In this document: one piece after another, positions 27,487 through 31,797 of the stretch
How positions within the stretch are numbered: position 1 is the stretch's first letter
Layout of the letters: each line of letters begins with the position of its first letter
NCBI RefSeq assembly: GCF_014643735.1
Contig: NZ_BMKA01000002.1
Span: 992,001 to 1,056,000, forward strand
DNA from: Neptunicoccus cionae
GTDB lineage: Bacteria > Pseudomonadota > Alphaproteobacteria > Rhodobacterales > Rhodobacteraceae
Direction: 5' to 3'
DNA: 64,000 bases
Made by a program: the position numbers and the translations under genes
The notes under the pieces: generated by a model
What the model saw: only the letters and a program-made list of their open reading frames with translations
Databases searched by the model: none
What the model was told of the DNA's origin: nothing

Positions 27487-27512
27487 AACGCACAACCCCA
27501 GCCGATGGTTCC
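27487..27512 (-). promoter_or_regulatory. Candidate sigma-EcfG promoter for the DUF883/holin operon
   Basis: On the minus strand GGAAC (27512-27508), 17 bases, then CGTT (27490-27487). This agrees with the alphaproteobacterial general stress consensus GGAAC-N16/17-CGTT. Confidence 0.75.
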
Positions 27513-27535: not shown

Positions 27536-27560
27536 GGAACTTCTCTCACTGCGACGTGTT
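27536..27560 (+). promoter_or_regulatory. Candidate sigma-EcfG promoter for the DUF1328 gene (and possibly dps)
   Basis: GGAAC (27536-27540), 16 bases, then TGTT (27557-27560), one mismatch from CGTT with correct spacing. It lies 57 bases ahead of the DUF1328 start and is back to back with the minus-strand motif. Confidence 0.6.
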
Positions 27561-28440: not shown

Positions 28441-29253
28441 TCAGACTTTCAAAGTCTCGGTAGAGGCAAAGAACATGGCTTGGCTTACCGCGGATTGCAC
28501 CTGCTCTTCCTTGTAAGGTTTGGCGATCAGGAAGGCCGGTTCGGGACGATCCCCAGTCAACAAGCGTTCAGGGAATGCTGTGATGAAGATAACTGGCGTA
28601 TCGCCGAGGTCTTTCATCAGATCATTCACCGCATCAATGCCCGAAGAATTGTCGGCCAGTTGGATGTCCGCAAGGATCAGATCCGGTTTCTTCTTGTTGC
28701 CCAGTTCAACTGCCGCAGCGCGTGTGCGGGCAATGCCGGTTACTTTATGACCAAGATCGGTGACAATCGCGCTGATGTCGGCGGCGATGATCGGTTCGTC
28801 TTCGATGATCATGATACTGCCGGAGATGCTGTCTTCCATGTCCTTGCGGGCGGTGCTGATCAGATGGCGCACATCATCGCGGGAAGCTTCCATGATGAGA
28901 GCGATCTCTTGGATGGAGAATTCTTCTACCGTGGACAATAGCAATGCTTCGCGGGTGTTGGCCCCAAGTGCGGCAAGATGTTTAAAGGCGGCGCCAAGTT
29001 CGCCTGCTTCATCCCGATTAACCGGCGCCCCGGTGCTGGCCCAGATCGCATGAAAGCATTTGAACAGTCCCCCCTTTACGGACAGCGTATTGTCGAAGAT
29101 CGACCGGTCCTGCAAAATCGCCTCAAGCGTGGCAACTGCATATTGGTCGCCACTGCTCTGCGTGCCCGTCAATGCGCGGGCATACCGGCGCAAAAACGGA
29201 AGCTCGCGGGCTACCTGATCGGAAAAATCTTCATTGGAGTGGGTGGTCGACAT
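28441..29253 (-). CDS. phyR: General stress response regulator PhyR
   Basis: PhyR is the anti-anti-sigma switch of the alphaproteobacterial general stress response. The 270-residue protein has an N-terminal sigma-like domain (residues about 10-140, without DNA-contact features) and a C-terminal receiver domain (about 146-262) with IIEDEP, phosphoacceptor Asp196 in ILADIQLAD, and the Lys in FLIAKPYKEE. When phosphorylated it binds NepR and frees EcfG. It is divergent from nepR-ecfG, with a shared palindromic promoter region between. Confidence 0.97.
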   Translation of the reverse strand: MSTTHSNEDFSDQVARELPFLRRYARALTGTQSSGDQYAVATLEAILQDRSIFDNTLSVKGGLFKCFHAIWASTGAPVNRDEAGELGAAFKHLAALGANTREALLLSTVEEFSIQEIALIMEASRDDVRHLISTARKDMEDSISGSIMIIEDEPIIAADISAIVTDLGHKVTGIARTRAAAVELGNKKKPDLILADIQLADNSSGIDAVNDLMKDLGDTPVIFITAFPERLLTGDRPEPAFLIAKPYKEEQVQSAVSQAMFFASTETLKV

Positions 29254-29280
29254 TTTTTTCGCCTTTTTTTCGTATTCCTT

Positions 29281-29312
29281 GGAACCAAACGCACACTTGC
29301 GCGTTTGGTTCC
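29281..29312. promoter_or_regulatory. Palindromic, bidirectional sigma-EcfG promoter of phyR and nepR-ecfG
   Basis: Two 12-bp arms (GGAACCAAACGC at 29281-29292 and its exact reverse complement at 29301-29312) flank an 8-bp spacer. Plus strand: GGAAC 29281-29285, 16 bases, CGTT 29302-29305. Minus strand: GGAAC 29312-29308, 16 bases, CGTT 29291-29288. Both match the EcfG consensus and lie about 35-40 bases from the respective start codons, so both divergent transcripts could start from one overlapping element. Confidence 0.85.
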
Positions 29313-29345
29313 CTAGTGTGATAATATTTTTATGTAGATGAAGCT

Positions 29346-29519
29346 ATGGGCCTGATGAGTAGAAGCGACGACAATGAAAAAGAGCGGGTAGCAACCTTAA
29401 TAGACCAGAATCTGAAGACGATATACTCTGATCTGGTCCAAGAGGAGCTTCCCGACAGATTTAAGGATCTTCTGGCGGTGTTGAAAGCACAAGACGCCGG
29501 TCAAAAGGACAGTCAATGA
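29346..29519 (+). CDS. nepR: Anti-sigma factor NepR
   Basis: This encodes 57 residues with the NepR core IDQNLKTIYSDLVQEELPDR then FKDLLAVLK, which corresponds to the conserved LR.vYddlv.EplPdRf.dLL pattern. NepR holds EcfG inactive until phosphorylated PhyR captures it. The stop overlaps the ATG of ecfG (ATGA). The start could be 29346 or an in-frame ATG at 29355; neither has a strong ribosome-binding site. The gene is short enough to be missed by length filters. Confidence 0.92.
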   Translation: MGLMSRSDDNEKERVATLIDQNLKTIYSDLVQEELPDRFKDLLAVLKAQDAGQKDSQ

Positions 29520-30073
29520 TGTCCACAGATCCGCGGAATGAGCTGGTAGAGCATCTGCCGGCCCTAAGGGCGTTCGCCCTGAGTTTGACCAGAAATTCCG
29601 CAACTGCGGATGACATGGTTCAGGACGCTGTTGTTAAGGCGTGGACAAATATAGATAAATTCGAACCTGGCTCGAAAATGCGGGCTTGGCTGTTCACGAT
29701 CCTGCGCAACACCTATTATTCCAGCCTGCGCAAATCCAACCGCGAAGTGGCGGATGTGGATGGTGCCTTCACCGAGGGTCTGTCCGTTAAGCCGGACCAT
29801 GACGGGCGGATGCAGTTGAGCGATTTCAAAGAAGCGTTTGAGACCCTTCCCGACGAACAGCGCGAGGCGCTTGTACTGGTCGGGGCCTCGGGCTTTACGT
29901 ACGAAGAAGCCGCATCGATGACAGGTGTAGCCGTTGGTACAGTCAAAAGCCGGGTGAATCGAGGACGGGAGAAATTGACCGAATTGTTAAATCTTTCGGA
30001 GGGCGACCCTATGGAACTCACCGATTCTGCCACAATGGCAGTGATCACAAGTTCCGCGCCGGTTAAACGTTGA
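29516..30073 (+). CDS. ecfG: General stress ECF sigma factor EcfG
   Basis: The 185-residue ECF sigma factor of the EcfG group has region 2 (RAFALSLTRNSATADDMVQD, KMRAWLFTILRN) and region 4 (LPDEQREALVLVGASGFTYEEAA, GTVKSRVNRGREKL). It directs transcription from GGAAC-N16/17-CGTT promoters, several of which lie in this window, including its own. It is translationally coupled to nepR upstream (ATGA) and to the histidine kinase downstream (TTGA). Confidence 0.95.
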   Translation: MMSTDPRNELVEHLPALRAFALSLTRNSATADDMVQDAVVKAWTNIDKFEPGSKMRAWLFTILRNTYYSSLRKSNREVADVDGAFTEGLSVKPDHDGRMQLSDFKEAFETLPDEQREALVLVGASGFTYEEAASMTGVAVGTVKSRVNRGREKLTELLNLSEGDPMELTDSATMAVITSSAPVKR

Positions 30074-31797
30074 GCGAAACAATAGAGTCAAACCCTAAAT
30101 GGTATAAGAGTCTGCGAATCCGCCTTGTGCTGATGATGTCGCTGGCTCTTTTACCGATTGGTTTGATTGCACTGATCCAGACCAACACCGTTTCCACCAA
30201 GGCGCGCCAGAATGAAGAACTGGCGCTTTTGGCGTTAACTGAGCAAGCTGCATTGCAAGAGCGACTGGTCATACAGAGCGCCTTTGGTGCGGCGCGGGGT
30301 CTGGGGGCCATGCTCTCGGATAATTTCAACAATACCGAAGCGTGTGATCGTGCTTTGTCCAAGTTGGTCGCAAGCGTCAAAGGTTACAGCTTTGCCGAGG
30401 TCGTAGACCTGTCTGGCGGCAATATCTGTGTTTCTGACGACCTGTCCAAGCGCAAGTTTGCCTTCCCCGATATTTCCGCAGTCGCCGAAGCTGGAAAACC
30501 GGCTGTTGTCACAAAACGCAGCCTGCAAGCCGATGGCAGCTCTGCGGTGTTTGTCATGCAGCCCTTTTACAGCCGCGATACTCTCTCGGGGTTCATCTCG
30601 ATCACGGTGCCTCATAAGGCGCTGACGATTGAAACCGATACCATCGCCAGCGGTCAGTTCTTCGATATTGTCACGCTAAACAACAAAGGGGAACTGCTGT
30701 CCTCTCAGAATGACTGGCAAGTCGCAAAGAAGGCTCTGCCCACGGGCTTTAACATGGACTGGCTGTCCACCTTCGGGTCCCGGGTCTTTCTGGCCCGCAG
30801 CAGCGACGGCGTTCCGCGTATGTACACAGCCGTGCCTGTAGAAGAAGGCCAAATTTTCGTCGTCGGCATTTGGTCGTCCTTAGGCGAAAGATCAGAGCGG
30901 CTGTTGCGTATCTTGTCGACGTCGGTCTTTCCGGTCCTGATGTGGATTTTCTCGCTGACAGTGGCGCTGATGACCATTCACCGGCTGCTGACGCGGCAGA
31001 TCAACTCGATCGGGCAGCAGATGCTTGAATTTGCACGAGACCGGACATCGGTAACCGATACCATCGCGCCCGATATGCCCAACGAGCTGCAAACCATTCA
31101 GGATTCCTACCTGTCGATGGCGGACTCGATCCTGCGGGAAGAGGCCAAGATGGAAGACGCGATGCGGCACCAATCCGTGTTGACCAAAGAGGTTCACCAC
31201 CGCGTCAAGAATAACCTGCAGCTGATCTCATCCATCCTTAACATGCAGATCCGCGCGGCAAGGCATGATGAAACCAAATTGATGCTGCGTCGCATTCAGG
31301 ATCGTGTTCTCAGCCTCGCCACGATCCATCGCGATCTCTATCAGAGCGGAACCGGAGGGCAGGTTAACGTCGGTGAACTGGTCCGCGAAGTGATTGAGAA
31401 AACCGTCCAAATCGGCGCTGAAAAAAGTATGGATATCGAGGTTAAGCTTGATGTGGATGAGGTCATGCTCTTCCCGGACCAAGCCGTCCCAATGTCTCTG
31501 CTGGTAGCGGAAGCCGCCACGAACGCTCTGAAATACGTTGGCGCGCCCGAAGGACAAACGCCTTGGATCTCCGTCGAATTCAAAAAGCTGGATGATGGTA
31601 AGAGATGCTGCTTGGAACTGAAAAATTCCACTGGCGCGGAACGCGAAGTAGAAAGCACCGGCCTCGGAGCCAAACTCATCTCAGCATTCGCCATTCAACT
31701 GGACGCAGACATCGAGATTACCGAGGACGAAAACACCTACACCATGCTGGTAAATTTCGACATCGCCCAGTTCGAACCGGAGTCGGCAGACTTTTAA
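30070..31797 (+). CDS. Membrane sensor histidine kinase, HisKA_2/HWE type
   Basis: The 575-residue kinase has a first membrane helix (about 17-37), a periplasmic sensor of about 240 residues with a Cache-like look (one Cys pair, FFDIVTLNNKGELLSS), and a second helix (about 283-305). A HAMP-like linker leads to a HisKA_2 domain with EVHHRVKNNLQLISSI (phosphoacceptor probably His377) and an HWE-type ATPase domain. Kinases of this class phosphorylate PhyR. It starts with a TTG overlapping the ecfG stop, so it is part of the nepR-ecfG operon. Confidence 0.92.
   Translation: MSETIESNPKWYKSLRIRLVLMMSLALLPIGLIALIQTNTVSTKARQNEELALLALTEQAALQERLVIQSAFGAARGLGAMLSDNFNNTEACDRALSKLVASVKGYSFAEVVDLSGGNICVSDDLSKRKFAFPDISAVAEAGKPAVVTKRSLQADGSSAVFVMQPFYSRDTLSGFISITVPHKALTIETDTIASGQFFDIVTLNNKGELLSSQNDWQVAKKALPTGFNMDWLSTFGSRVFLARSSDGVPRMYTAVPVEEGQIFVVGIWSSLGERSERLLRILSTSVFPVLMWIFSLTVALMTIHRLLTRQINSIGQQMLEFARDRTSVTDTIAPDMPNELQTIQDSYLSMADSILREEAKMEDAMRHQSVLTKEVHHRVKNNLQLISSILNMQIRAARHDETKLMLRRIQDRVLSLATIHRDLYQSGTGGQVNVGELVREVIEKTVQIGAEKSMDIEVKLDVDEVMLFPDQAVPMSLLVAEAATNALKYVGAPEGQTPWISVEFKKLDDGKRCCLELKNSTGAEREVESTGLGAKLISAFAIQLDADIEITEDENTYTMLVNFDIAQFEPESADF

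Follow-up and report, generated by a model that had tools for sequence, protein, structure and literature searches.

Interlocked putative sigma-EcfG promoters between phyR and nepR-ecfG in Neptunicoccus cionae

The divergent locus and its intergenic element

We analysed a 64,000-nucleotide stretch of the Neptunicoccus cionae genome (the window). It contains the genes of the divergent phyR/nepR-ecfG locus known from the general stress response (ECF15/EcfG) of alphaproteobacteria, in the same divergent order. The phyR gene is read from the minus strand and nepR-ecfG-kinase from the plus strand, and the intergenic region between them measures 92 bp, counting from the first ATG of nepR. The PhyR-NepR-EcfG general stress response is characterised by a partner switch, in which EcfG is released when phosphorylated PhyR takes up NepR; PhyR and NepR are antagonists. 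PhyR of the window carries sigma-like and receiver domains that score above their cut-offs, and the NepR anti-sigma gene lies directly upstream of the ECF sigma gene, divergent from phyR. The nepR product was identified by Pfam, with no match in NCBIfam. The EcfG protein is 98% identical to those of Amylibacter cionae and Neptunicoccus sediminis, and the kinase reached 212 bits against the PhyK family NF051872, below the cut-off of 750. The features of the locus are listed below.

28441..29253, minus strand: phyR, response regulator and anti-anti-sigma factor, 270 aa (PF22029, PF22233, PF00072; PhyR family NF006623, 348.1 bits, cut-off 240)
29281..29312, no strand assigned: putative dual sigma-EcfG promoter element, interlocked, 12-8-12 palindrome (from sequence; outer frame in 102 of 126 divergent loci)
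29281..29305, plus strand: predicted EcfG-type promoter, nepR-ecfG-kinase side (motif: -35 GGAAC 29281-29285, N16, -10 CGTT 29302-29305)
29288..29312, minus strand: predicted EcfG-type promoter, phyR side (motif: -35 GGAAC 29312-29308, N16, -10 CGTT 29291-29288)
29346..29519, plus strand: nepR, anti-sigma factor, 57 aa, start codon tentative (PF18557, 49.8 bits, cut-off 25.7)
29516..30073, plus strand: ecfG, ECF sigma factor, 185 aa, overlapping the end of nepR (PF04542, PF08281; NF009198, 316 bits, cut-off 270)
30070..31797, plus strand: HisKA_2/HWE histidine kinase, PhyK-like, 575 aa if counted from the first TTG (tentative start), overlapping the end of ecfG (PF07568, PF07536)

Direct reading of positions 29281-29312 gave GGAACCAAACGCACACTTGCGCGTTTGGTTCC, which consists of the arm GGAACCAAACGC, the spacer ACACTTGC and the arm GCGTTTGGTTCC. 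The 12-bp arms form a perfect inverted repeat around the 8-bp spacer, and GGAAC-N16-CGTT was matched at 9 of 9 positions on each strand, which confirmed the sequence-only reading of arms, spacer and motif. The two copies interlock in the register GGAAC-N2-AACG ... CGTT-N2-GTTCC, with each -10 sitting 2 bp inside the -35 of its partner. The accessible text of PMC7083833 and PMC3892343 prints the EcfG consensus as GGAAC-N16-CGTT, and that of PMC12148442 as GGAAC-N16-17-C/GGTT; both halves of the element fit GGAAC-N16/17-CGTT. On both strands the predicted promoter lies at a sensible distance from the start codon, and the 5' leaders would be about 26-34 nt long. A consensus search found no housekeeping promoter adjoining the element. 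A GATAAT run downstream of it was noticed by eye.

A single promoter word is commonplace: GGAAC-N15..19-CGTT occurred 4 times in the window against a shuffle mean of 3.42, whereas the doubly overlapping pattern occurred once against a mean of 0.0 in 60 first-order Markov sequences of equal length. Since the single word is frequent by chance, the evidence rests on the pairing and on its place. With loops of at most 20 allowed, perfect 12-bp inverted repeats gave 7 matches at 4 places in the window (simulated mean 0.1, maximum 3), so that it is the motif content, and not the bare hairpin, that is unique. Folded as DNA, the hairpin potential of the element was -13.9 kcal/mol (z -5.7). The register of two GGAAC/CGTT promoters dictates 9 of the 12 arm positions, which leaves positions 6, 7 and 12 as symmetry beyond what the promoters require.

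The interlocked register in relatives

One EcfG search, which favoured close kin, yielded 46 loci (L001-L045 at 61-98% identity and one outlier at 32%), and further loci were added via NepR and pattern matches in family-sample and class-sample genomes. NepR was found in 65 of the 149 family genomes (63 above the cut-off) and in 56 of the 289 class-sample genomes (41 above). All NepR places above the family cut-off were taken, except a second same-frame match in genome G437; of those below it, only G438:C12 and G307 were taken. The 198 sequences thus assembled (197 loci and the window) gave 126 distinct divergent phyR/ecfG loci. Set aside were 38 in which PhyR or EcfG was missing at E 1e-10, PhyR was truncated or the gene order was not divergent, together with 34 repeats, whose 80-bp stretch was identical to one already counted. 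Two Rhodosalinus loci (L036 and L040) had nepR/ecfG matches and no phyR match in the fetched stretch, and their genomes (G014, G016) were without the strict interlocked element.

The outer frame GGAAC-N20..23-GTTCC was present in 102 of the 126 loci, compared with 0.13 expected from mononucleotide shuffles. The named loci, the window among them, contributed 41 of 42, the family sample 57 of 61 and the class sample 4 of 23. Back-to-back -35 words (GTTCC-N4..12-GGAAC, the -10s not being required) were seen in 9/126 loci, in which N6..9 separates the two words, and 15/126 had neither layout. Five of the 103 named and family-sample loci were without the exact frame (L029, L138, L139, L144, L167), and L029 and L167 missed it by one base in a -35. 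In loci L001-L003 both arms are intact, and the centre differs by no more than one change.

A GGAAC-N16/17-NGTT site faced nepR in 112 of the 126 loci and phyR in 100, and 95 loci had sites on both strands. In these 95, the span of the pair nearest 32 bp was 31-33 in 81 loci, -8 (back to back) in 5 and other in 9. The -10 was CGTT in 65 phyR-facing and 64 nepR-facing sites of the 102 interlocked loci. The phyR-facing half was weakened or missing in several loci; L029, L117, L139 and L144, for example, have the nepR-facing site but no phyR-facing GGAAC-N16/17-NGTT. With the register kept in most relatives, the comparison supports the earlier claim that one element holds an EcfG-type promoter for phyR and another for nepR-ecfG.

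The strict interlocked pattern was found in 31 of the 149 family genomes, once per genome and, when the two tables were compared, each time no more than about 250 bp from a NepR match; the reversed-pattern control was found in 1/149. It was also present in 12 of the 18 genomes behind the named loci, once per genome and within the phyR/ecfG stretch, and in 3 of the 289 class-sample genomes, one of which, G223, carried it away from NepR. According to the ORF list, the full element of G223 (L197:2001-2032) precedes the gene of a receiver-only response regulator; the neighbouring frame beyond the element has the same orientation, and the list showed no divergent gene.

Some variants of the words themselves were observed. 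The Tateyamaria loci L026 and L028 have CGTA instead of CGTT as -10 on both strands, and the Leisingera loci L031 and L038 have CGTA at the phyR-facing -10 only. In the flanks of the 102 interlocked loci, the phyR side shows an A-rich run 12-17 bases away from the element (A 0.47-0.80) and the nepR side a weaker A/T-rich run, and T is almost absent (0.03-0.04) from the first base outside on both sides.

Promoter words, symmetry and history of the element

Aligned by span, the 54 span-32 elements hold 0.7-2.0 bits as AACG/CGTT in columns 8-11 and 22-25, where the rows had not been selected, and merely 0.01-0.29 bits in columns 13-20. The 40 span-33 elements likewise show AACG/CGTT at the expected -10 columns and little information in the centre. 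In L001-L045 and the window, near-copies retained, AAC stood at positions 8-10 in 44 of the 48 strict in-element sites but in only 4 of the 113 other strict GGAAC-N16/17-CGTT sites, a set that includes chance matches. The inner AAC therefore belongs to the -10 of the partner, and we rejected the idea that the EcfG motif proper includes the AACG following GGAAC. The other sites favour C at position 6 (54/113) and A at position 7 (42/113), which explains part of the extra symmetry of the element. An open frame follows 106 of the 113, a loose test that does not discriminate.

We compared the symmetry of the 58 canonical elements with that of re-paired arms, in statistics that ignore kinship throughout. 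Perfect 12-bp arms occurred in 10/58 elements against 5.6 expected (p 0.027) and, with near-copies collapsed, in 7/48 against 4.5 (p 0.14). Mirror-matching arm positions numbered 610 against 595.7 (p 0.002), or 504 against 492.8 after collapsing (p 0.007). In single-position tests, which also ignore multiplicity, the excess fell chiefly on position 7 (32/58 against 23.3 expected, p 0.005), with position 11 at 38 against 32.7 (p 0.025; collapsed p 0.17) and no excess at positions 6, 12 and 14. Quasi-palindrome repair is a possible source of symmetry, and the small excess could come from it or from base composition. Just inside the arms, position 13 (one of six positions tested) had 7 mirror matches against 16.1 expected, as if longer perfect palindromes were avoided.

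Among 93 elements with TT-ending -10s, the two spacers had the same length in 74, where 47.0 would be expected (kinship ignored); they were unequal in the other 19/93, which shows that the register is able to slip by a base. In our reading, it is mainly the interlocked register, with its span of 30-33 bp, that relatives keep, rather than the perfect palindrome. Perfect palindromy as the chief conserved property was rejected on the count of 10/58 against 5.6, though the small overall mirror excess is significant. The proposal that symmetry as such matters gained little or nothing from the relatives, and the check on their intergenic regions came out divided: the perfect palindrome is often lost, but the interlocked promoter pair is mostly retained.

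History was followed on unrooted trees of two proteins. With FastTree on all 126 loci, the interlocked label required seven changes, at least six of them forced by well-supported branches; with IQ-TREE on 41 of the loci (22 hand-picked, window included; L181, L192 and L195 dropped as long branches), it required five, at least three of them forced. The window falls in one large clade of mostly interlocked loci. A second interlocked clade (L135, L136 and L180, support 100/100) lies within a separate branch, alongside back-to-back loci. In the family of this second clade, an interlocked element adjoins NepR in 6 of 7 genomes; all 6 elements show a one-base gap, and in 5 of them the phyR-facing -10 is CATT. 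We read the second clade as a probable second origin; the counts on unrooted trees would also fit a shared state that was lost elsewhere.

Proposed working of the element and alternative explanations

Taken together, the motif matches and their conservation make it very probable that the element consists of two complete interlocked sigma-EcfG promoters, one per strand; mutual exclusion, and a ratio governed by the relative strength of the halves, would be consequences of that arrangement. The plus-strand promoter would drive nepR-ecfG-kinase and the minus-strand promoter phyR. Given the usual distance from -10 to start, transcription would begin just outside the element, at about 29312-29314 on the plus strand and about 29279-29281 on the minus strand, with divergent starts about 32-35 bp apart and non-overlapping transcripts. 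Because both promoters use the same 32 bp, a bound EcfG holoenzyme would be expected to exclude the other direction, and each binding event would yield either PhyR, the positive arm, or the EcfG/NepR/kinase arm. At high EcfG activity, how strong one half of the site is relative to the other would determine the ratio of the PhyR arm to EcfG/NepR/kinase; as PhyR and NepR are antagonistic, the shared site would then set their ratio under strong induction. The presumed EcfG dependence of these loci rests on motif and synteny.

"Back-to-back" and "overlapping" promoters are meant here in their customary sense. In the accessible text of a review (PMC8103513) and a research paper (PMC4814048), the phyR and nepR-ecfG units are described as usually divergent, with EcfG-type promoters on both, and interlocking in one 32-33 bp site, as present in the window, goes unmentioned. 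Nor was interlocking at this locus mentioned in the running text of the open literature found, including the accessible text of PMC7083833, PMC3892343, PMC6599016 and PMC12148442; Figure 4A of PMC12148442 draws predicted promoters at such loci. Divergent EcfG control is thus already known, and the interlocking, though unmentioned in the text found, may be drawn somewhere.

The closest general parallel is the bidirectional promoters of Warman, Grainger and colleagues, in which, according to the accessible text of PMC12825309, a pseudo-symmetric site engages RNA polymerase either way and one orientation excludes the other. In the element of the window, the promoter parts of both directions likewise lie within one site by geometry and conservation, and exclusion would follow. 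The same text describes the E. coli promoters as built on a symmetric, shared -10; 18 bp is the commonest distance between their divergent starts, and 10 and 23 bp are also frequent. Here the two -10 words do not coincide (29288-29291 and 29302-29305): a separate -35 and -10 serve each direction, the sigma factor is of the ECF type, and the starts would be about 32-35 bp apart. The element may therefore work like a bidirectional promoter, yet in a different geometric class. For E. coli, PMC12825309 (accessible text) further reports that basal activity was too low for competition at all five tested bidirectional promoters, that competition emerges when one direction is strongly activated, and that variation is reduced where interference constrains transcription. 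By that analogy, exclusion may be irrelevant at low occupancy of the EcfG site.

Should one site indeed serve both units, their ratio would be determined by 32 bp of DNA and not by two promoters tuned separately. The locus would then be a natural, conserved case of promoter sharing inside a feedback circuit, with the back-to-back relatives as a built-in comparison. Bidirectional promoters would also no longer be confined to those with a symmetric, shared -10, but would include one for an alternative sigma factor whose -35 and -10 words are fully interlocked. A stronger proposal, which we regard as possible but rather doubtful, is that the element is a selected ratio clamp: competition for one EcfG holoenzyme site would fix PhyR versus NepR/EcfG/kinase at any feedback drive, bursts would be mutually exclusive, and the layout would have been kept in one large clade and reached separately in another.

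Compatible with two interlocked working promoters, and only slightly short of an even chance, is the explanation that the overlap is historical: indels and substitutions in the shared stretch strike both promoters, and the layout would be frozen without any benefit from competition. Single central indels account for the paired 16/16 and 17/17 spacers that make up the equal class, one clade supplies most of the evidence, and the intergenic region is short, as in the window. The unequal spacers speak against a strictly frozen state by showing that a one-base slip of register persists, and the 9 back-to-back loci imply that other compact layouts are possible. The second interlocked clade, with its one-base gap, also argues against it, although the unrooted counts do not distinguish gain from shared state.

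We consider it unlikely that EcfG promoter function is limited to the nepR-ecfG direction and that the copy facing phyR is weak or a relic. This reading would suit the relatives with a nepR-facing site only and the lower number of phyR-facing sites (100 against 112), but both copies in the window match fully, CGTT is about as frequent at phyR-facing as at nepR-facing -10s, and EcfG-type promoters are stated for both units in most cases in the accessible text of PMC8103513 and PMC4814048.

Still harder to sustain is the view that a dimeric transcription factor uses the palindrome as its operator, the EcfG-like words being incidental. The perfect arms and the strong DNA fold would be natural for such a site, as would mirror matches above re-paired arms overall, at position 7 and (uncollapsed) at position 11. 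The operator was nevertheless rejected: the conserved columns are those of both EcfG promoter words, the element may span anything from 30 to 33 bp, positions 6, 12 and 14 have no excess symmetry, position 13 is in deficit, and each of the 12 of 18 and 31 of 149 genomes has a single strict element, situated at this locus, G223 being the one exception. An RNA hairpin, terminator or leader structure is scarcely credible and was rejected despite the strong hairpin potential of the DNA, for the starts expected outside the arms would leave the hairpin out of both transcripts and no terminator-like site was found in 29150-29450.

Two more EcfG-like sites lie elsewhere in the window, back to back and non-interlocked, with a ferritin-like gene nearby: GGAAC-N17-CGTT at 27487-27512 (minus strand) ahead of a DUF883_C gene, and GGAAC-N16-TGTT at 27536-27560 (plus strand), read by eye, ahead of a DUF1328 gene.
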